Assembly: GCF_000378165.1 (NCBI RefSeq)
Contig: NZ_KB899334.1
Coordinates: forward strand, 186,001-250,000
DNA from: Saccharibacter floricola DSM 15669
Lineage (GTDB): Bacteria; Pseudomonadota; Alphaproteobacteria; Acetobacterales; Acetobacteraceae
Length of the DNA: 64,000 bases
Direction: 5' to 3'
Part shown: piece by piece, positions 22,618-60,222 of the stretch
How the letters are laid out: the number at the start of each line of letters is the position of its first letter
Position numbering within the stretch: position 1 is the first letter of the stretch
Made by a program: the position numbers and the translations under genes
Notes under the pieces: generated by a model
Databases searched by the model: none
Told to the model about the DNA's origin: nothing
Seen by the model: the letters and a program-made list of their open reading frames with translations, nothing else

Positions 22618-24025
22618 GACGCTTTGTTGCAAGGGCGATCACGGCATCGAGCATTTGATCCACGTCCTGTGTCTCTGTCCGGTGGTTCACAATCGCAGCA
22701 CGGATAGCAAGTTGACCGTTTATCCGTGTTGTGGAAGGGGCGGCAATCCCTGTTTCATGAAGGTCTTTCACAAGTTCTGAAAGCGCGTCATCACTTAATG
22801 CATCAACGGTGAAACAAACGATATTCAGCGTTACAGGAGCAAGCAACGTCACGCCATCTGTACGGTCTATCTGTTGAGCTAAATGCCGCGCTACTGCACA
22901 GCTTTTGTCCACAACCTGTCCCATACGGTCAGCCCCGTAATGGCTTAGGGTCATCCATACCTTAAGCGCACGAAACCCACGGGAGAGGTCTGGCCCAAAG
23001 TCACAAAACCATGGAGCATTGCCAGCAAGACCACGGTCTTCTCGCACGAGATAATCCAATGATTGTGCGAAAGCCGCCGCATGACGCTTCCCATCACGCA
23101 CCAACACACATCCTGCATCGTAGGGCACTTGCGCCCATTTATGGAAGTCAAACGCCACGCTATCAGCGCGTTCAATTCCCTTTAACAGCGGCGCATAATG
23201 TGGGGACAAACACGCTAAAGCCCCAAAAGCCCCATCGACATGGAACCAAAGCTGCTCCTCTTGTGCGACATCTGCTAAGTGGTCAAGCGGGTCAACAGCA
23301 CCACAATCCACAGTGCCCGCTGTCCCGGCTATCATAAAAGGCTCTAATCCCGCCGCGCGATCACGCTTAATCTGTTCTCGCAGCGCCGCAACATTGACGC
23401 GATGAGCGCCATCAGTCGGGATTTTTCGCAATGCATCACTGCCTAATCCCGCAATATCAAAAGCGCGCGGCAAGCAGCCATGTGCACTTTCTGGCGCGTA
23501 CCCAACAAGAGCATGATGCCGCACACCTTGTTGACGCAATGCGGGTTGATAGGTGCGGCTTGCCGTAATCACGGCAATAAAATTCGCCATTGAGGATCCT
23601 GTTACAAGACAGCCCGACCCTGTTTCCACCGGCAAACCAACCATTTCTCGCGCCCAGCGTAACACTTCTCGCTCGACTTCAATGGCGGCATGATCACGCC
23701 CTCCGCAATTCGCGTTCAAGCCTCCTGCCAGCATTTCAGCCAGCATCCCAATGGGCGTGCCCGCTCCATGCACCCATCCCATAAAACGTGGATGACGATT
23801 CCCGTTATCATAAGGCACGATAAGCTCTTGGAAGCACTCATAAATTTCTGGAAGAGAACACCCATCATGAGGTAGGCTTTGCCGCAATTCTTCACGTGCC
23901 TTGTGAGGCATAGGGGTCCAGACCGGTTGCTGATGACGATGTTCAATCTGAGTAAACATGTCATCAAGCATCTGATGACCCAAAGCACGTAATGCTGACC
24001 AGTTTTCAGGATCCAACCCAGCCAT
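22586..24025 (-). CDS. PLP-dependent group II amino acid decarboxylase
   Basis: A 479-aa pyridoxal-phosphate enzyme of the aromatic-L-amino-acid/glutamate decarboxylase family. It shows the family start ([19 protein letters not shown]), the stretch [15 protein letters not shown], the cofactor-facing [10 protein letters not shown] and the Schiff-base lysine K296 in [14 protein letters not shown]. The substrate cannot be read: tryptophan, phenylalanine, DOPA-like and diaminobutyrate decarboxylases look alike at this level. AGAGG lies about 9 nt before the ATG. Its ATG sits on the opposite strand of a possible upstream start of the divergent exported protein. Confidence 0.88.
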
Positions 24026-24095
24026 GACCCATACCTCTCTTTTCTCTTATCCTGATGCTTCATTGCCAGAAGCGCAGCGCGGCGTCACGAAAAGG

Positions 24096-24974
24096 ATGAT
24101 GTCACGGCTTTCATATATGGTAGGGGCGTTGTCCTGTGTCGGTATGTTTGGGGTGCTCTCTCCTCTTGCCTCTGCAAAGACACTCCCACCGCTTTCTGAG
24201 GCATGCTTTACCTATACGCCTGGTCATGCAAAAGACGGCTCACACACGCTCGCCAGCACAGACTTTCGTGCAGTCCTCCCGGGCACAGGCCTGTCACTGC
24301 GCATTGCGAGCACACAACTTACAGACCATAGCCACCACCTTGATGCATCCGCGCTGGAACGTATTAATGCTGCAGCCGCTTATGCCGCATTAAGTGCGCT
24401 TAACCACGGGGTTAGCGACGCTTGCCAGGGCATGCCTATCCCTGAAACAGACGAAGTAAAAGGCGCAACCCCAGAAGCCCACTGGTCCATCGCAACGCTT
24501 TCTAGAACGGGGAAAACAGATATTACAGTTAAGAATATCCATCTCTCTGTTTTAACAACCTCGCCCGGCATTCATGTTAAATTTGATGCAATTGGCCTGC
24601 CAACGGATCATCCCCTATTGCCAAGTAAAGGCTCCGGCGACCTTACATTCTACCCAGCTGCTACACCTCCCTATCATGTTGATCTTCATAGTCTCAGAAA
24701 TACAATTGGTAAGAGTGAGATTGAGGGTAAAGGAACGTTATGGGTCGCCCCAGGCGTGCAGAACCTCAAAGGTACGCTGCATCTCTCCATTAGCCATATT
24801 GGCGCTCTTATCCAACGTGTTAGCACAGTCGCCCCTGTTAGCGTCACGGCAGGACTGTCTGTCGCCCGTATGATGAGCAATACGGAAGGAGCAGATATGA
24901 GCGGTTGGGATATTCAACTGAATGACGGCAAAGCAGTCGTCAACGGAATCTCTATTCCACTGCCTAAGCATTAA
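24096..24974 (+). CDS. Exported protein of unknown function
   Basis: A 292-aa protein I cannot place with certainty. It begins with a signal peptide (MMSRLSYMVGALSCVGMFGVLSPLASA). The mature part is beta-rich with alternating hydrophobic strands and ends with GWDIQLNDGKAVVNGISIPLP, which recalls AsmA-like or DUF2125-type periplasmic proteins. An ATG 72 bp upstream in the same frame (24024) would add residues before the signal peptide and overlap the divergent decarboxylase start, so it is disfavoured. AAAAGG sits directly before the double ATG at 24096/24099. A strong terminator follows. Confidence 0.75.
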   Translation: MMSRLSYMVGALSCVGMFGVLSPLASAKTLPPLSEACFTYTPGHAKDGSHTLASTDFRAVLPGTGLSLRIASTQLTDHSHHLDASALERINAAAAYAALSALNHGVSDACQGMPIPETDEVKGATPEAHWSIATLSRTGKTDITVKNIHLSVLTTSPGIHVKFDAIGLPTDHPLLPSKGSGDLTFYPAATPPYHVDLHSLRNTIGKSEIEGKGTLWVAPGVQNLKGTLHLSISHIGALIQRVSTVAPVSVTAGLSVARMMSNTEGADMSGWDIQLNDGKAVVNGISIPLPKH

Positions 24975-24988
24975 CGCTGTTTATTGCG

Positions 24989-25055
24989 AAAAGGCGTCAT
25001 ATATGAGCCATAACCAAGAGACTCACTCAAATTCGAGCATATATGGCGCTTTTTT
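24989..25055 (+). terminator. Rho-independent terminator of the exported-protein gene
   Basis: A stem of about 17 bp with two G-U pairs (left arm 24989-25005, right arm 25038 to about 25054, core CATATATG on both sides) closes a 32-nt loop. The 3' arm runs into TTTTTT. It begins 15 bp after the stop codon. Confidence 0.75.
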
Positions 25056-25240
25056 CATTTTTAGAAGAAGAATATCGCATAGGCCCGTCCTCCGGCATTG
25101 TAGGATTGCTGGGGAGCTTGTCACGTAATCTCTGGACAAATCGAATACCAGCCGCCCTCGGCACATGAGAACAATGGGAAGAAACTGTTAGCCTCACCTT
25201 GAGTAAAAATGCACCCTCTTTTAAGAACGATAGCAATAAA

Positions 25241-25330
25241 AATGCGTGACCTATTGAAAGAGGGTTTATCGACTTCCCAATATTAATGCGTGACCTATTG
25301 AAAGAGGGTTTATCGACTTCCCAATATTAA
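25241..25330 (+). repeat. 44-bp tandem direct repeat, two copies
   Basis: Positions 25241-25286 and 25285-25330 are identical, giving two head-to-tail copies with a period of 44 bp. Each copy starts AATGCGTGACCTATTG and ends CCCAATATTAA. The identity suggests a recent duplication. No spacer variation, so it is not a CRISPR array. Confidence 0.95.
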
Positions 25331-25391
25331 GGAAGAGTAAGCACTTTTTCACATTTCACAAAATAAGTGTGCTCTTAGGAGCATTCTACAT

Positions 25392-25433
25392 ATTATGTGC
25401 CAGAGTGTCCTCACCCTCATTCTGGCACATAAT
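25392..25433 (-). terminator. Perfect hairpin downstream of dnaE
   Basis: A perfect 13-bp stem (ATTATGTGCCAGA / TCTGGCACATAAT) with a 16-nt loop begins 8 bp after the dnaE stop. There is no T run behind it on the minus strand, so it may protect the mRNA 3' end or act with the second small hairpin at 25370-25383, which is followed by a T-rich stretch. Confidence 0.55.
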
Positions 25434-25440
25434 GCTTCTG

Positions 25441-28400
25441 CTATCTCTGCTCTAACGACCCAACACCTTTGATCGTTTTCAAACGCTCGGCCAGACGAGG
25501 TGTGACGCGGTAAGAGGTCGGCAGCTTCACCTCTACATCAGACGTTTCCTCAAGCGAAGGAAGCAAAACCACACGCCCTCGCCCCCCTTGCACGCCCTCA
25601 AGCATATCACGAATAGCAGGCAAAGCGTCCTGTTGCTCAACCCAAATACGCAGCTCGCCCCGCTCTTCTGCTGCGGCGCGTTCTAGGTCTGTCACATGAT
25701 GTGCTGTAATGCGCAACGCATCGCCATCAAGTTTCAATTCTGCATTTACAAGCACCGCTTGCCCTGCAACCAGCAAATCACGACAGTTCGCCAAAGTTTC
25801 AGCAAATAAAGTGACCTCACAGCCACCACTGGCATCGGTCAGATTAACCCATGCCATTTTCTTGCCCGTGCGAGTGGGCCGCTCTTTTTTGTCCACCACA
25901 CAACCCGCAATCTTCACACGCGTCGTGCCAGCATGGGCGCTTCGGTCGAGCTGAATGGACGGTGTTACGCCCATCCGCCGTAAAGTCGCACGATACCCAT
26001 CAAGCGGATGCGCGCTCATATGGAAACCTATCACAGCAGCTTCATGAGAAAGACGCTCAAAGTCTGGCCATGGGCGTACCGATTTAAGCCTTAGAATTTC
26101 ACGAGTCGCGCTATCTGATCCACCGAACAATCCAGCCTGACCGACCTGCTTCTCCTGCGCGCGGGCTTGTGCACGCCGCATGATCATATCGGCACTCTTA
26201 AAAACCGTATGACGATCAGGCTCTAAACGATCAAAAGCCCCTGCCTTAGCGAGGCTCTCAATCTGAATTTTGTTGATATGTTTCGAGTCGCACCGTTCTG
26301 CAAAATCCGTAATATCTTTAAACGGCGTATCACCACGATCACTCACGACCCCTTCCATCGCAGCAGCTCCAACACGCTTAATGGCTGAAAGCGCGTAACG
26401 AATCGCTAAACGGCCATCATCGAGCTTCTCAATAGAGAAATCGGCTTGTGACCGGTTCACATCCACGGGCAGAACCGGGATTCCCATGCGCTTGGCTTCT
26501 TGGCAAAGTGCGGCAAGCTTCTCGGTTTTTTCACGCGCCAATGACATACAGCCTGCAAGGAAAGGCACCGGGTGATTAGCCTTCATCCATGCCGTTTGAT
26601 AGGACACAAGCGCATAGGCTGCGGCGTGGGACTTATTGAACCCATAATCGGCAAACTTTGCCATCAAGTCGAAAACTTCTTCGGCTTTTTCTGGCGTAAT
26701 CCCTCGCGCCACCGCCCCTTCACGGAAAATAACGCGCTGCTTTTCCATCTCAGAAGCGATCTTTTTACCCATCGCACGCCGTAAAAGATCAGCTCCACCC
26801 AGGCTGTAGCCCGCCATTTTCTGGGCGATCTGCATCACCTGCTCCTGATAGACCATAATGCCATAGGTCTCTTCGAGGATGGAGCGAATCTCCTCATGCG
26901 GCGGCGTCCATTGCGCCCCATGTTTCCGGCGGCAATATTCAGGAATATTCGCCATAGGCCCCGGCCTGTAGAGCGACACACCGGCGATCAAATCTTCAAG
27001 CCGGCTGGCTTCCATTTGCTTAAGCATATCGCGCATGCCCGCCCCTTCAAACTGGAACACGCCGGCGGTATCCCCGCGCGCCATCATGTCGAAGGTTTTT
27101 TTGTCATCCAGCGGGATATGAGAGAGATCGACCTCAACGCCCAGCTCTTTTAAGAAATCAACACCCCTTTTGAGGATTGTCAGCGTCGTCAGCCCTAAGA
27201 AGTCGAACTTAACCAGCCCCGCTTGCTCAACAAACTTCATATTATACTGCGTGACTTGCATGTCACTTCGCGGGTCTCGATAAAGCGGAACAAGCTCAAC
27301 GAGGTTACGATCCCCGATCACCACCCCGGCCGCATGGGTCGATGCATGACGGAACAGCCCTTCAAGCTGAAGCGCAATCTCCAGCAAACGCCGGATCATC
27401 TCATCAGTGTCACGCATCTCCTGCAAGCGTGGTTCTTCTTTAATAGCCTGTGCCAGAGGCGTTGGTTTAGCAGGATTATTGGGAATAAGCTCTGCAACGC
27501 GGTTGACCATCCCATAAGGTAGCCCCAACACACGGCCCACATCGCGCACGGCTGCCTTTGCTTGCAATTTCCCAAAAGTAATAATCTGCGCGACACGTTC
27601 ATTGCCATATTCTTCTTGAACGTAACGAATCACTTCATCCCGTCGATCCTGACAAAAATCAATATCGAAGTCAGGCATCGACACACGTTCTGGATTGAGA
27701 AAGCGCTCAAACAGCAACCCAAACGGAATAGGGTCAAGATCAGTAATCGTCAGTGCATAGGCCACGAGAGACCCAGCACCCGATCCACGCCCCGGCCCTA
27801 CAGGAATACCGTGATCTTTCGCCCATTGAATAAAGTCCGCAACGATCAAGAAATAACCGGGGAATCCCATTCGGACGATAATGCCCAGCTCTGTTTCAAG
27901 CCGTTCTTCATACTCTGCCCGACGCGCTTCCCCACCTTTCATGACAGCAAGGCGCTTCTCCAGCCCCTCTTTCGCCATGGCACGAAGCGTTTCTTCTTCC
28001 GTCGCGCCTTCATTGACCTTAGGACAAACGGGCAAAAGTGGCTTGCGCGTTGGCGCGGCTACCGCGCAATGCTGTGCAATAATTAACGTATTGTCACAGG
28101 CATCGGGGAGGTCATGAAATAATGCTCGCATCTCTTGCGGGGTTTTAAACCATGCCTGCGAAGAAACACGCCAACGCTCTTCCTCCGCCATCGTGCGACC
28201 TTGCGCAATGCAGAGCAACGCATCATGGGCCTCGTGCATATCTGGCTTCGGGAAAAAACACTCATTGGTCGCAACAAGTGGAATCCCTCGTTCATCAGCC
28301 ATACGAATCAAAGCGGGCTCTGTGACATCCTCACCCGCTTCATCAAGGCGGTTAATCTCAATGGCAAGATAGGGGCCAAATGCCTGATGTACACGCTTTA

Positions 28401-28866
28401 AAAATTTTGCAGCAGCCTCATCTTGTTCTGCTAAAATACGTCGGTTAAGCGGCCCTCTATTCCCTCCCGTTAAGAGGAACAACCCAGCAGATTTGTCGCA
28501 CAACACATCAAGCGCCACGCTTGGATCGGCAGGATCTCCGTTCAAAAATCCTTGTGTCGACAGATATTGAAGGTTAGCCAGCCCTTCTTCCGTTCGCGCT
28601 AATACAACAACGGGCTCCGCCGGTGTTCCAGGCTTATCGCTCATGGGTGGCAAAGCAAGCTGGCACCCAATAATAGGTTGAACCCCGGCTTTACGGCACG
28701 TCAAAGAAAATTCCAGCGCACCAAAAAGATTCCCACTGTCAGTCAGTGCAACAGCGGGCATTTTGTTCGCAACGGCCAGGTCAACGAGCTCAGCAGCGCG
28801 AATAGCGCCCTGACTTAAAGAGTAAGCAGAATGATTACGGAGATGGATAAAATCAGCGTGAGACAT
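25441..28866 (-). CDS. dnaE: DNA polymerase III alpha subunit
   Basis: Replicative DNA polymerase catalytic subunit, 1141 aa. The N-terminal PHP domain begins FIHLRNHSAYSLSQGAIR. The polymerase catalytic aspartates are in MPDFDIDFCQDRRDEV at about residue 400. The palm, thumb and finger region (GPGRGSGAGSLVAY, HAAGVVIGD) is followed by helix-hairpin-helix and OB-fold parts in the last 250 residues. Length and order match the standard DnaE1. It lies 80 bp downstream of lolD in the alphaproteobacterial proS-lolC-lolD-dnaE arrangement. Confidence 0.98.
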   Translation of the reverse strand: MSHADFIHLRNHSAYSLSQGAIRAAELVDLAVANKMPAVALTDSGNLFGALEFSLTCRKAGVQPIIGCQLALPPMSDKPGTPAEPVVVLARTEEGLANLQYLSTQGFLNGDPADPSVALDVLCDKSAGLFLLTGGNRGPLNRRILAEQDEAAAKFLKRVHQAFGPYLAIEINRLDEAGEDVTEPALIRMADERGIPLVATNECFFPKPDMHEAHDALLCIAQGRTMAEEERWRVSSQAWFKTPQEMRALFHDLPDACDNTLIIAQHCAVAAPTRKPLLPVCPKVNEGATEEETLRAMAKEGLEKRLAVMKGGEARRAEYEERLETELGIIVRMGFPGYFLIVADFIQWAKDHGIPVGPGRGSGAGSLVAYALTITDLDPIPFGLLFERFLNPERVSMPDFDIDFCQDRRDEVIRYVQEEYGNERVAQIITFGKLQAKAAVRDVGRVLGLPYGMVNRVAELIPNNPAKPTPLAQAIKEEPRLQEMRDTDEMIRRLLEIALQLEGLFRHASTHAAGVVIGDRNLVELVPLYRDPRSDMQVTQYNMKFVEQAGLVKFDFLGLTTLTILKRGVDFLKELGVEVDLSHIPLDDKKTFDMMARGDTAGVFQFEGAGMRDMLKQMEASRLEDLIAGVSLYRPGPMANIPEYCRRKHGAQWTPPHEEIRSILEETYGIMVYQEQVMQIAQKMAGYSLGGADLLRRAMGKKIASEMEKQRVIFREGAVARGITPEKAEEVFDLMAKFADYGFNKSHAAAYALVSYQTAWMKANHPVPFLAGCMSLAREKTEKLAALCQEAKRMGIPVLPVDVNRSQADFSIEKLDDGRLAIRYALSAIKRVGAAAMEGVVSDRGDTPFKDITDFAERCDSKHINKIQIESLAKAGAFDRLEPDRHTVFKSADMIMRRAQARAQEKQVGQAGLFGGSDSATREILRLKSVRPWPDFERLSHEAAVIGFHMSAHPLDGYRATLRRMGVTPSIQLDRSAHAGTTRVKIAGCVVDKKERPTRTGKKMAWVNLTDASGGCEVTLFAETLANCRDLLVAGQAVLVNAELKLDGDALRITAHHVTDLERAAAEERGELRIWVEQQDALPAIRDMLEGVQGGRGRVVLLPSLEETSDVEVKLPTSYRVTPRLAERLKTIKGVGSLEQR

Positions 28867-28946
28867 ATCGGCATTCTACCACGCTCACCCTACAGGCTGG
28901 AACGTCTTTCAGGGCCAAGACGCGCAGAAAAATGTACTCATGCTCT

Positions 28947-29642
28947 TCAAAAAGGGACGATCTTACCGTCTCGCAACGTAACCGTACGATCCATTGACGC
29001 GGCCAATGCTTCATTATGCGTAGCGACCAGAGCCGCAGCTCCCTCCTGCCGCACAACGCGGGTTAACTCCCCAAACACGAGGTCAGCTGTTTTGACGTCC
29101 AAATTACCCGTTGGCTCATCCGCCAAAAGTAGGCTGGGAGCATTCGCAAGGGCACGCGCAATGGCCGTGCGTTGCTGCTCTCCCCCCGACATGCGGCCCG
29201 GTAAGGACTCTAAGCGGTGCTGCACGCCAAAGCGTCCAAGCAAATCCTCTGCCCGCTGCCGTGCATCACGCGGAGACTGCCCGGCAGCTAGTTGCGGTAA
29301 CATGACATTTTCACACGCGGTAAACTCACCCAGCAAATGATGGAACTGATACACAAAACCAATTTCATCACGACGCAACGCTGTGCGTCCCGCCTCCCCC
29401 AAGCGCCGCGTTTCTTTCCCATTAATCAGCACATCGCCGCGGCTAGGAGCTTCCAACAAACCCGCCAAATGCAAAAGTGTTGATTTTCCCGTGCCACTCG
29501 GCGCCACTAGCGCGACCATTTCACCGGGATGTAACGCAAAATCAGTCTCTTTCAGAATCGTCAGGTCATCATCACCAGAACGATAAGAACGCGAAACCTG
29601 CTGAAGCTCCAACGTCAACGCACGTGATACGGCTTCACTCAT
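28947..29642 (-). CDS. lolD: Lipoprotein-releasing ABC transporter ATP-binding protein LolD
   Basis: ATPase of the Lol system that extracts outer-membrane lipoproteins from the inner membrane. The 231-aa product has Walker [21 protein letters not shown] signature [32 protein letters not shown] with Walker B, and a switch histidine in [11 protein letters not shown]. The start at 29642 has GGAGG 10 nt upstream; the longer frame extends into lolC. It overlaps the lolC end by 8 bp. Confidence 0.95.
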
Positions 29643-30882
29643 GACGCAAGGCCTCCACCGGATCTGTTTTTGCCGCACGCCATGACGGATAAAGCGTTGC
29701 TAACAAAGAAAGCGCTAGAGACAGCAATACGACTTCAATCACCTGAGACCATACGATACGGGCGGGCAAACGGGCGAGAAAATACACTTCGGAGTTAAAG
29801 AGGTTCGTGCCGGTAAGCCCTTCAAGCACATGGCGAATACGCTCAATATTAAGTGCGAACGTAATGCCAAGCCCCGTACCCAACACGGTTCCAATCACAC
29901 CGACCGATGCGCCGCACATAAGAAAAATGCGCATCACAGCCCCACGGCTCGCACCAAATGTGCGCAAAATAGCAATGTCACGCGTTTTGTCTTTAACCAT
30001 CATGATAAGCGAGGAAATCACGTTAAACGCTGCGACTAGAATAATCAGCGTTAAGATGAGGAACATCACGTTTTGCTCAACCGTCACGGCGTCTAAGAAC
30101 CCATTGGCACTATGCGTCCAATCCACAACACGCAGCCTCGGGTCTCCAAGCGTATCGGCAATCGTCTGCCCTATAGGCTGGACATGAATAGGATCTATCG
30201 TGCTGACCTGAATAAGTGACACTGCATTGCCTAGCATGAAGAACTTCTGTGACGCAGGCAGCGGCATGAGCACGATGTTACTGTTATAATCGTTCCAGTT
30301 CGCATCAAAAATCGCGACAACACGCACCTTTTTCACACGAGGCATCGTGCCAAAAGGTGTTGAACGTCCATCTGGTGAGAGCAAGGTCATCGTTGAACCG
30401 ACTTGCAAGCCAGCGCGCTCTGCCATACTCACCCCAATCGCCACAGCATCATCACCACGGAAATCATTAAGGCTTCCGCTAAACACACCTTGGCTTAGAG
30501 CCGTCCAATTTTTAAGATCATCAGAGGCAATCCCTTCCAGCATCGCCCCCGTAGAATAACGAGAGGCTTCTGCTAAGATAGTGCCCTGTGTCATCGGTAA
30601 AACTTGCGTAACACCCGACACACTGCGGATCAGACGCGCCGTATCTTGATAACCCTCAATGCGTTGGCTGTAGCTATACACATTTAAGTCACCATGAAGG
30701 CCCAAAATACGGCCCATCAAATCTGCTTTAAAACCGTTCATTACGGCCATGACGATAATGAGCGTGGCAACACCAAGCGCGATCCCCACAAGAGAGAAAA
30801 GCGCAATGATTGAGGCAAAGCGCTCCCCTTTCCGTGCCCGAAGATACCGCCCTGCAACAACACGCTCAAAACGTCCAAACAT
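29635..30882 (-). CDS. lolC: Lipoprotein-releasing ABC transporter permease LolC/E
   Basis: Inner-membrane permease partner of LolD, 415 aa. It has the LolC/E N-terminus ([47 protein letters not shown]), a large periplasmic domain (about residues 50-270) and three C-terminal membrane helices with the FtsX-like [14 protein letters not shown] loop. Alphaproteobacteria usually have one such permease instead of separate LolC and LolE. The ATG at 30882 follows the proS stop by one base, so expression is probably coupled. Confidence 0.94.
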
Positions 30883-30883
30883 A

Positions 30884-32200
30884 TTAAGCCAGCCCAAGCT
30901 TCTTCAGTGCTTCATCAACGGAAAGCTCAAAACGCTCACCAGTTGCCCGCTCTTTGAGTTCCACCATGCCATTCTTGGCCCCGCGTGGGCCAATGATGAT
31001 CTGCCAAGGATGGCCGAGCAGATCCGCATCGTTAAACTTCACACCTGCACGCTCTGAACGATCATCATAAAGAATGTCATCCGGCGCACATTGGTAGAAC
31101 CGTTCACACAGCGCATCACAGGTGTCGTCCCCAGAACGCAAGTTCAAGATCGCCGCTCGGTAAGGCGCAATCGACTCGGGCCAGATAATGCCATTATCAT
31201 CATGAGAGGCTTCAATAATCGCCCCGACCAGACGAGAGACACCAACCCCATATGAGCCCATATGCGGATGGAAAGCTGCGCCATCTGCACCGCTGACTTC
31301 CACACCCATCGCTTCGGTATATTTTGTACCGAAATAGAAGATGTGCCCCACTTCAATCCCACGACCAGACGCCTGCCTTTCTTGGGGAACCTGTTCCCAA
31401 GCGGCCGTATCATGCTTCTCGTCCGTTGCAGAATAAGTGGTGCTCACCAAATCCTGAAGCTTTTTGAGATCCTCAGGACGATTGCCATCGAGGTCTTCTT
31501 TATCCCAATCAATCTCATCCCAGCGACTATCATAAAAAACCTCGCTCTCCCCCGTAGGAGCAAGCACTTGGAATTCATGGCTGAGATCACCACCAATCGG
31601 CCCTGTATCGGCCGCCGTTGGCACCGCTTTAATGCCAAGACGACGGAAAATGCGAAGGTAAGAGAGCATCATGCGATAATAGCTGCTCACCGCTCCTTCA
31701 TAGGACGCATCAAACGAGTACGCATCCTTCATGTAGAATTCACGCCCGCGCATCACACCGAAGCGTGGGCGAATTTCATCACGGAATTTCCACTGAATAT
31801 GATACAGCGTCTTCGGCAGTTCACGATAAGATTTAACCGTGCTCCCGAATAAGTCTGTCACGACCTCTTCATTCGTGGGGCCATAAAGGAGTTCACGTTT
31901 TTGCCGATCCTGAATCCGCAGCATTTCAGGCCCATAAGCATCATAACGCCCAGAACGTTTCCATAATTCAGCAGACTGCAGGGTTGGCATCAGCACTTCC
32001 TGCGCACCCACTCCATCCTGCTCTTCGCGCACGATCTGAGCAATATTGCGCAGCACACGCAACCCTGCCGGCAGCCATGTATAAATTCCTGATGCTGTCT
32101 GGCGGATTAACCCGGCACGCAGCATCAAACGATGAGACATAATCTGAGCTTCAGCCGGCACTTCTTTCAGTGTCGGCTGGAATGCTTGGCTTAAACGCAT
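30884..32200 (-). CDS. proS: Prolyl-tRNA synthetase, short alphaproteobacterial form
   Basis: Class II synthetase for proline, 438 aa. Motif 2 region is [32 protein letters not shown] and motif 3 is [16 protein letters not shown]; an anticodon-binding domain fills the last 110 residues. Compared with the E. coli enzyme of about 570 aa, the large editing insertion between motifs 2 and 3 is missing, as is normal in alphaproteobacteria; editing of mischarged Ala-tRNA-Pro would need a separate factor. AAGGAAG lies 8 nt before the ATG, 12 bp after rnj. Confidence 0.97.
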
Positions 32201-58563: not shown

Positions 58564-58575
58564 ACCATAGCTCTT

Positions 58576-58612
58576 AAAAAGGCCGCCTCCACCATAGGAG
58601 CGCGGCCTTTTT
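58576..58612. terminator. Bidirectional terminator between ppc and the CLC gene
   Basis: AAAAAGGCCGC and GCGGCCTTTTT form an 11-bp stem with an inner CTCC/GGAG extension. A and T runs on both sides let it end both the plus-strand ppc and the minus-strand transporter transcripts. Confidence 0.88.
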
Positions 58613-58641: not shown

Positions 58642-59976
58642 TTAGTCTGTCCATTTACCTAAACGTGCCTGACGGATCGTCACACCAGGCTTGAACATTT
58701 TCCGCCAAATCTTCGGCACGGCAATCCGTTGCGACACGTAAATTCCCGTATGACCGGAGGCAAGATACGCAATGATACAGCCTACTGCGTAGTAGATCAC
58801 ATTCGCACCACCAAACATCTCCACGGCCATAAAAGTACAAGCAATTGGCGTATTCGCAGCTCCAGCGAACACAGCAACGAAGCCAACCCCCGCCAACAAA
58901 TCAACCGGAACACCTAAAAGAGGTGCAAGAGCATTCCCCAGACCTGACCCGATAAAAAAGAGCGGCGTGACCTCACCGCCTTTAAACCCGCATGACAAAG
59001 CAATGACCGTAAAAATAAGCTTTAAGAGCCAGCTCCACGCATAATGATGAGCACCAAAGAAATTTAGGATCGATGCACCGCCTGCTTCTGGGGCAACCAT
59101 ACCTAAACCAAGATAATCACGCGTACCCAAAGCCCAGACCAACATAATCGTGACAACACCACCAATTGCTGGACGCAACCAGCTTTGTGGGCAAAACTTC
59201 TTCACAATTGGGGAAAGGTACTGAACCCCTTCTGAAAAAGCCCGGCTCGCAAACCCAAAAGCAATAGCAGCGACACCCACTTTCACCAATAACAGAGCAT
59301 TAACATGGAAAATGCGCCCATCAGCCCCTGTCAAACCATGAAAACCCATAGAATAGGCGGGATGATGAATACCCCATTGGTAACACACCCAGTCTGCCAC
59401 AACAGAACAAATCGTTGCAGGCAATAAGGCGCTACAATCAAGACGCCCCAAAGTCAAAACTTCCAGTCCAAAGACAGCGCCAGCAATGGGCGTTCCAAAA
59501 ACAGACCCAAACCCAGCAGCAATCCCCGCTGTGAGCAAAATGCGCGTATCGCGCTTATCCAAGCTGAACCAACGTGCGACCGCGCTCGCTAGGCTTCCCC
59601 CCATTTGAACGGCGGTTCCCTCTCGCCCAACCGAGGCTCCGAAGAGATGACTAATGATCGTTCCCAAAAAGACCAGCGGCGCCATACGCAAAGGCACACC
59701 GGCATCCGGCTCATGAATCTCATCAATAATGAGATTATTCCCCCCATCAGAGCGACCGCCCCAAAGGTAATAGGCCAACCCAACCGCGACCCCAGCGACG
59801 GGCAAAGCATAGAGAATAGCTGGATGGGTAAAGCGATACTGGGTCACAACCTCCAAAAGCCATAGGAACAGAGCACAAAAACTCCCTATCACCACAGCAA
59901 GCGGCAAGACCAAAAAACTCCAACGCACCAGTTGAAGAAACAACGAAAACATCTCTTTAAATGTTATTGATGGCAT
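58642..59976 (-). CDS. CLC-type antiporter, probably fluoride/proton (CLC-F)
   Basis: A 444-aa membrane protein with about ten hydrophobic helices of the CLC fold. Instead of the chloride-type GREGP loop it has GREGTAVQ (about residues 117-124, gating Glu119). Upstream it carries GGNNLIIDEIH and DAGVPLRMAP where chloride transporters have GSGIP. Both match what I recall of the fluoride-exporting CLC-F group. A fluoride-riboswitch-like leader precedes the gene, which strongly supports export of toxic fluoride in exchange for protons. The ATG at 59976 has AAGGGAG 7 nt upstream; a TTG one codon earlier is not needed. Confidence 0.85.
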   Translation of the reverse strand: MPSITFKEMFSLFLQLVRWSFLVLPLAVVIGSFCALFLWLLEVVTQYRFTHPAILYALPVAGVAVGLAYYLWGGRSDGGNNLIIDEIHEPDAGVPLRMAPLVFLGTIISHLFGASVGREGTAVQMGGSLASAVARWFSLDKRDTRILLTAGIAAGFGSVFGTPIAGAVFGLEVLTLGRLDCSALLPATICSVVADWVCYQWGIHHPAYSMGFHGLTGADGRIFHVNALLLVKVGVAAIAFGFASRAFSEGVQYLSPIVKKFCPQSWLRPAIGGVVTIMLVWALGTRDYLGLGMVAPEAGGASILNFFGAHHYAWSWLLKLIFTVIALSCGFKGGEVTPLFFIGSGLGNALAPLLGVPVDLLAGVGFVAVFAGAANTPIACTFMAVEMFGGANVIYYAVGCIIAYLASGHTGIYVSQRIAVPKIWRKMFKPGVTIRQARLGKWTD

Positions 59977-60032
59977 CAACAGACTCCCTTACCGATCACA
60001 CCACGCATAATCTTACGTGCGTATGTCATATT

Positions 60033-60110
60033 GGCAGGAATCATCAGCCTTTCCCGGTTTCCCCGAGTGGCAGTTCGACCTTCATAAAAGTCAGGTGGCA
60101 ATCCATCACC
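60033..60110 (-). promoter_or_regulatory. Candidate fluoride riboswitch (crcB motif)
   Basis: On the minus strand, 56 nt before the CLC start, the sequence shows the ordered landmarks of the fluoride aptamer: GGTGATGG (from 60110), then CCACC, whose CACC can pair with GGTG as the pseudoknot, then AACTGCC ... GGCTGATGAT, ending TTCCTGCC. P1 (GGATT with GATTCC) has one T-T mismatch, and the usual CCTAC end reads CCTGC. An extra hairpin GACTTT/AAGGTC is inserted before P2. A TTGACA -35 lies at 60146-60151 but no good -10 follows. No T run lies between aptamer and gene, so control of translation is more likely than termination. Confidence 0.75.
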
Positions 60111-60168
60111 TATCTGCCATAGGAAAGACACGAAAAGGATATTTCTGTCAAGTATCTATCCCACCAAC

Positions 60169-60197
60169 AAAAAACCCCCGCCTAAAAGCGAGGGTTT
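60169..60197 (-). terminator. Rho-independent terminator of fusA
   Basis: On the minus strand AAACCCTCGC and GCGGGGGTTT pair (one G-U) around a short loop and run into TTTTTT. It begins 26 bp after the fusA stop. Confidence 0.85.
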
Positions 60198-60222
60198 CTT
60201 GATCACATACGCTGTGAAAAGA

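Follow-up and report, generated by a model that had tools for sequence, protein, structure and literature searches.

A single-gene unit for fluoride sensing and export is very probably encoded on the minus strand of a 64-kb window of the Saccharibacter floricola genome, with translation of an antiporter gene of the CLC-F type controlled by a fluoride riboswitch aptamer in its leader. The window is the whole stretch of DNA analysed, 64,000 nucleotides in length. Four computed features define the unit: a match to the fluoride aptamer family, CLC-F signatures in the protein, conserved synteny of the two, and complementarity between one strand of the aptamer and the ribosome-binding site of the gene. 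The aptamer departs from the usual architecture of its family in two ways, and this departure recurs in related leaders.

Organization of the locus

The putative antiporter gene occupies 58642..59976 on the minus strand, encodes 444 amino acids, and is assigned on the basis of PF00654, the structure 6d0j, sequence motifs and a tree. The reading frame can be opened one codon earlier at a TTG (58642-59979). The ATG at 59976 is the better start, as AAGGGAG (59990-59984) lies 7 nt upstream. The ribosome-binding site, AAGGGAGUC, spans 59982..59990 (minus), and 51 nt separate the end of the aptamer match from the ATG. Upstream lies fusA, which is followed by a probable intrinsic terminator at 60169..60200 (minus; 14-bp hairpin and T run, -19.7 kcal/mol, z -5.9); this hairpin probably separates the CLC unit from fusA. 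A second probable intrinsic terminator follows the CLC gene at 58573..58612 (minus; hairpin and T run, -25.8 kcal/mol, z -4.4). A consensus terminator scan listed neither the fusA-side (60200-60169) nor the CLC-side (58612-58573) hairpin. The promoter scan found no minus-strand promoter in the region; by eye only, a candidate -35 box TTGACA is seen at 60146..60151 (minus), accompanied by no convincing -10 box. Given the strong T-run hairpins behind both fusA and the CLC gene, the transcription unit probably consists of this one gene with its own promoter.

The fluoride aptamer

The original prediction had recognized a fluoride riboswitch from five words in the leader, GGTGATGG, CCACC, AACTGCC, GGCTGATGAT and TTCCTGCC. 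All five lie on the minus strand in the order claimed, and the Rfam family RF01734 bears the prediction out, matching 60119-60028 on the minus strand with 38.1 bits against a gathering cut-off of 34 (E 5.6e-7, computed for 64 kb against 4227 families). The only other Rfam matches in the window that reach their gathering scores are four tRNAs, and this is the single fluoride riboswitch detected in the genome. A second model, R1, built from 26 homologous aptamers with the window's own excluded, scores 48.4 bits at 60112-60033 (E 9.5e-14, a rough value) and, at E values of up to 1, matches nowhere else in the window.

The RF01734 alignment and the sequence itself place P1, P2, the pseudoknot and the core segments AUGG, AACYGCC and CUGAUGA in the leader. 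These three segments have a role in binding Mg-fluoride. The P1 hairpin (60093..60111, minus) pairs AGGUG (60111-60107) with CACCU (60097-60093), and its loop carries the 5' strand of the pseudoknot, GGAUUG (60104-60099). The 3' strand, GAUUCC, lies at 60037..60042 (minus); its alternative partner, in the predicted OFF state, is the ribosome-binding site. The six-position pseudoknot is incompletely paired: GGAUUG and GAUUCC are mismatched at positions 4 (U60040 opposite U60101) and 6 (G60042 opposite G60099). Since the pairs annotated in the Rfam alignment do not include the pseudoknot, these mismatches mark a variant and do not exclude membership of RF01734.

The probable fluoride antiporter

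The protein belongs to the CLC family (PF00654, 232 bits). The three best matches in a PDB search are the CLC-F antiporter 6d0j (E 1.8e-62) and its sequence variants 6d0k and 6d0n; the first match outside this group, 3nd0, follows at E 6.7e-7. The published signatures of CLC-F proteins, as given in the accessible text of PMC11139923, are GNNLI/GMGLI, GREGT/V and GEVTP. The window protein has all three, as GNNLI, GREGT and GGEVTP. GREGT, GNNLII and DAGVP had been put forward beforehand as CLC-F features. All are present, but DAGVP is not among the three published signatures; GEVTP, which is, had gone unnamed.

A tree of 29 proteins places the window protein with 6d0j and 24 others in a single group of 26 rows (support 99/99). 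The three proteins outside it, L002, L004 and L034, include the two further CLC genes of this genome, L002 and L004, so that the window protein stands with CLC-F and apart from both. The branches of 6d0j and L004 are long, the midpoint root serves for drawing only, and the tree tool warned that the long branches of L002/L034/L004 and of L031/L033 meet. The paralogue L002 carries GSGIP, GREGP and GGLFAP, and its locus has no riboswitch; L004 matched none of the motif patterns used. A search for CrcB family proteins found none in this genome, while the same search was positive in 10 of 14 control genomes.

These results bear on whether the aptamer match or the CLC-F assignment could be spurious and the gene an ordinary chloride CLC. 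The RF01734 score lies only 4 bits over its cut-off, and the NCBIfam models that match the protein are solely ClcB-like, ClcA and 'ion channel' families, chloride or unspecified in name and all far below their own cut-offs. Against this stand the stronger score of R1, the conservation of the riboswitch before homologous genes, and three CLC-F signatures where the riboswitch-free paralogue L002 has the motifs given above. This explanation is thus extremely improbable. A chloride CLC preceded by a chance RNA match was rejected on the strength of RF01734, the 6d0j match, R1 and the tree. The original pairing of a fluoride riboswitch with a CLC-F protein therefore stands, with the aptamer above its cut-off and the protein grouped with CLC-F proteins, 6d0j included. 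The original prediction contained neither the translational expression platform nor the additional hairpin and the mismatch in the pseudoknot, which are described below.

Some relatives differ in their motifs. L010 and L026 are riboswitch-linked CLC-F proteins with GREGS instead of GREGT. L031 (genome G029) and L033 (G116) share 43% and 39% identity with the window protein and fall inside the CLC-F group of the tree although they lack GNNLI. They keep GREGT and have GGNVTP in place of GGEVTP. A search of their fetched loci at E values of up to 0.01 gave no riboswitch; genome G116 contains one weak fluoride riboswitch match. They are possibly CLCs of altered selectivity that have also lost fluoride control. 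The notion that the riboswitch invariably accompanies this type of CLC is qualified by these two loci.

Conservation of the riboswitch–CLC pair

Within the Acetobacteraceae, a CLC match at E 0.001 is found in 199 of 249 genomes, and a fluoride riboswitch in 84, of which 79 score above the cut-off. Twenty-nine family CLC loci were fetched, from the window's own (L005) to L033, at 39–100% identity. The leader contains a riboswitch in 27 of them, the window's included; 25 reach the cut-off, and L027 (33.9 bits) and L028 (31.3 bits) fall just under it. GTDB genomes, scanned with the family alignment, extend this picture. Among the best 80 loci, which were those kept, RF01734 lies upstream at cut-off in 71. 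These 80 loci span Alphaproteobacteria, Bacteroidota, Verrucomicrobiota and one member of Desulfuromonadales, and the set consists partly of the same strains as the family rows.

Several further observations concern the distribution of these elements. Some genomes are rich in fluoride riboswitch matches, with 14 in G094, 12 in G183, 9 in G220 and 7 each in G058 and G134. At L032 (G136:C1:1132040-1133262), the CLC-F match is in two pieces with one internal stop, behind a riboswitch of 45 bits; a young pseudogene or an error in the sequence may account for this. Proteins related to that of the window are encoded on 147 plasmid records of PLSDB; in 114 of these, a single place covers 80% or more of the query. 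Identity is 60–80% in one record and below 60% in the other 146. Of the 147 plasmids, from Klebsiella, Sphingomonas, Agrobacterium and others, 49 are predicted to be conjugative.

A variant aptamer architecture

Between P1 and AACTGCC, the leader contains GACUUUUAUGAAGGUC, which forms a 6-bp hairpin directly 3' of P1 (GACUUU-UAUG-AAGGUC; 60077..60092, minus). The RF01734 alignment treats this segment as an unpaired insertion. The hairpin appears in the minimum-energy fold and in an alignment of 26 homologues picked among hairpin carriers, where all four of the counted hairpin pairs change on both sides and 94.9% of cells are paired; the fourth pair is unpaired in five sequences and gapped in five. 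None of these 26 sequences pairs at the fourth pseudoknot position, although both of its columns (12 and 66) vary. The other five pseudoknot pairs are invariant in the 26 and so uninformative on covariation.

The joint occurrence of the two features was surveyed in 222 parsed aptamers: 26 family CLC leaders, 49 other family riboswitches, 71 GTDB CLC leaders and 76 from class and phylum searches. Removal of 17 duplicates left 205 distinct aptamers. The sample is non-random, as 20 of the 49 other family rows were fetched for their long matches and the riboswitch search matches were fetched in part. A hairpin was scored as a run of at least three pairs, and a mismatch as position 4 unpaired with positions 1–3 paired. 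Two rows were set by hand: L014, where the parser chose the wrong GATG, to mismatch, and L168, which had a spurious hairpin, to none. The label 'CLC' comes from the route of locus discovery in 97 rows and from tblastn in the rest. By these definitions 74 aptamers have hairpin and mismatch (14 of them with three pairs only in the hairpin), 17 the hairpin only, none the mismatch only, and 114 neither. The pseudoknot is fully paired in 14 of the 17 and in 106 of the 114; counted among the latter class are L097, which has no hairpin and is unpaired at positions 3–5, and seven more with other mismatches. The position-4 mismatches of the 74 are U-U (46), U-C (15), C-U (9), C-C (2) and A-C (2). The extra hairpin alone was rejected as the definition of the variant, since the 17 carry it at the same insertion site without the mismatch. 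R1 matches usual aptamers too, and the 31 of 398 genomes that it matched in the phylum search were therefore not taken as a measure of how common the variant is.

The variant is concentrated before CLC genes, with 67 of the 74 preceding those of Alphaproteobacteria or Verrucomicrobiota. The 93 aptamers before CLC genes comprise these 67, two with the hairpin only (L157, L259) and 24 with neither feature. The last class includes L025 from the family and 15 leaders of the GTDB set (L152-L155, L165-L168, L173, L176, L182, L183, L187, L188 and L192), most with GGUGUC/GGCGCC. Before non-CLC genes the variant is found in 7 of 112, in three genera of the family. The genes concerned encode universal stress proteins (PF00582; L070, L073, L074) and an alginate-export-type porin (PF13372; L069); at L071, L077 and L082 the starts of the proteins resemble the stress proteins. 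Two aptamers are exceptions in detail. L157 is paired at position 4 and mismatched at position 3, and L081 combines the hairpin with a paired pseudoknot, has ACGG instead of AUGG and scores 33.7, under the cut-off.

One contig brings both architectures together. In G037, contig C20 (about 23969-31987) carries five fluoride riboswitches within 8 kb, L016, L039, L069 and L074 among them, at genes for CLC-F, enolase (PF00113), a universal stress protein (PF00582), an alginate-export-type porin (PF13372) and a fifth gene. The aptamer is of the usual form in the enolase leader and of the hairpin–mismatch variant in the leaders of the CLC-F, stress protein and porin genes.

In the open-access texts consulted on fluoride riboswitches, no description of the extra hairpin or of the position-4 mismatch was found. 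Within those texts the architecture appears to be an undescribed variant.

Proposed mechanism of translational control

The proposed switch comprises four steps. (i) The leader of the mRNA would fold as a fluoride aptamer. (ii) Without fluoride, GAUUCC (60042-60037) would pair with GGAGUC (59987-59982) in the ribosome-binding site and block translation of the CLC gene. (iii) On binding of Mg-fluoride, the aptamer pseudoknot would capture GAUUCC and leave the ribosome-binding site free. (iv) The CLC-F antiporter would then be made and would export fluoride by antiport with protons. In this scheme we infer the direction of the switch, the binding and transport of fluoride, and the freeing of the ribosome-binding site.

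The minimum-energy fold of the leader (60125-59956) contains P1, the extra hairpin, P2 and the GAUUCC–GGAGUC helix. Its energy is -52.1 kcal/mol (z -2.2), equalled by 3 of 200 shuffles. In the predicted ligand-free fold, GGAGU is unpaired with a probability of 0.01–0.05, and the preceding G with 0.23. Because GAUUCC doubles as the 3' pseudoknot strand, pseudoknot and ribosome-binding-site helix are mutually exclusive. With both pseudoknot strands held unpaired in the fold model, the core GGG of the site is still paired elsewhere (unpaired 0.00–0.04); the model does not reproduce release of the site under that constraint, and release is a presumed step. In the minimum-energy fold, part of the start-codon region (UGCCAU, 59975-59970) is paired as well, its partner being AUGGCA at the leader's 5' end (60120-60115, minus).

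The complementarity is widespread among the variants. A complement of 6–7 nt to the pseudoknot 3' strand lies downstream, within about 100 nt, in 58 of the 74, and 56 of these 58 are Shine–Dalgarno-like by a simple pattern, the sites being taken directly from the pattern. A 6-nt complement is absent in the other 16, and a few that were counted (for example at L013 and L117) fall within or close to coding sequence and so probably do not represent ribosome-binding sites. The mean complementary run is 6.3 in the 74 variants against 5.0 in mononucleotide shuffles. A stricter pattern, GGRRUY over all six bases, is found in 48 of 74, and in 47 of these it fits the fourth base; in 200 mononucleotide shuffles it is found in 16.3 on average and 27 at most. 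A ribosome-binding site is inherently near the complement of UUCCU, so some complementarity is to be expected even without a switch.

The same riboswitch could act on transcription, by intrinsic or Rho-dependent termination. Predicted terminators often overlap the crcB motif according to its original description, as far as accessible (PMC2864571), and the examples studied in PMC11077080 are, in its accessible text, transcriptional. Near the start of its CLC gene, at 59937-59918 (minus), the window itself has a hairpin with TTTTTT that resembles a terminator. Between aptamer and start codon, however, no terminator-like site is listed, and transcriptional control was for this reason not retained as first choice; the four such sites listed for the region, the early hairpin among them, are close to the number that shuffles produce (mean 3.4). 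In the window the ribosome-binding site is part of the complement of GAUUCC, in 56 of 74 homologues this complement is Shine–Dalgarno-like, and translational fluoride riboswitches are known (PMC13273304, accessible text). Transcriptional control is accordingly unlikely, and control of translation is the preferred reading.

At six loci, a GTG-TAA or GTG-TAG start–stop directly follows the sequestered ribosome-binding site (L017, L020, L118, L119, L120 and L178, the last four from Komagataeibacter), and the CLC match starts well downstream. Short leader reading frames may be involved here.

A possible role for the unpaired base

In the 58 leaders with a 6–7 nt run, the unpaired pseudoknot base falls within the downstream complement. 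The mismatch would then favour the OFF state, and the additional helix could stabilize the aptamer. A tentative reading, to which we give somewhat less than even weight, is that CLC-F genes of Alphaproteobacteria and some Verrucomicrobiota share a co-inherited riboswitch subtype, in which selection maintains a base that pairs only in the OFF helix and a helix stacked on P1 compensates. The mismatch would tip the switch towards OFF and the stacked helix would offset the weakened pseudoknot, such that the gene is silent until fluoride arrives. For transcriptional fluoride riboswitches, the accessible text of PMC11077080 reports that switching is decided by single pseudoknot pairs and suffers when pairing is stronger. 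The pairs tested there are weaker ones and not mismatches, and the pair at position 1 is the most influential. By our own mapping, position 3 of that study is the fourth position here, and the prominence of position 1 counts against a main role for it.

The mismatch might instead be only apparent, owing to a pseudoknot register displaced by one nucleotide, or it might, together with the hairpin, be a neutral relic of one ancestor. In the shifted register six pairs (G-U allowed) can form in 9 of the 74 and five in 37, and the window aptamer could form six. Common descent is probable for most of the 74, and the hairpin occurs without this mismatch in the 17 others, most of them with complete pseudoknots. 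Yet the usual register gives five pairs in 65 of the 74 and four in 9, whereas the shifted one leaves 28 with three or four; the mismatch is maintained across five base combinations; and in L157 the fourth position pairs while the third is mismatched. A shifted register or a neutral relic is rather unlikely.

Relation to known systems and significance

The combination of a fluoride riboswitch with a CLC-F gene is already known, and the unit described here is a further member. Fluoride riboswitches are stated to control about 30% of CLC-F genes (PMC11139923, accessible text). The aptamer resembles the RF01734 fluoride (crcB) riboswitch in having P1, P2, the pseudoknot, AACYGCC and CUGAUGA in the same order; unlike the usual form, it adds a hairpin after P1 and leaves the fourth pseudoknot position unpaired. 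The covariation motif of the aptamer in the accessible text of PMC13273304 comprises P1, the pseudoknot and a further helix termed P3. The protein is similar to 6d0j, the CLC-F of Enterococcus casseliflavus, over residues 4-418 and shares GREG and GEVTP with it, but has GNNLI and GREGT where 6d0j has GMNLV and GREGV. In Zymomonas mobilis, another alphaproteobacterium, a crcB motif likewise lies in the leader of a chloride-channel-family gene, ZMO0547, and is conserved with Gluconobacter (PMC5770649, accessible text). The translational fluoride riboswitches of Burkholderia and Pseudomonas syringae, which serve as controls in PMC13273304, are alike by their description there in being terminator-free.

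For S. floricola, a bacterium in which no CrcB was found, the riboswitch–CLC-F unit is a probable explanation of survival in the presence of fluoride. The variant aptamer, for its part, offers a natural test of the principle, published in PMC11077080 as far as accessible, that single pseudoknot pairs decide switching: a broken pair at one position has been kept in 74 sampled aptamers, and in 58 of them the base so freed can pair downstream.
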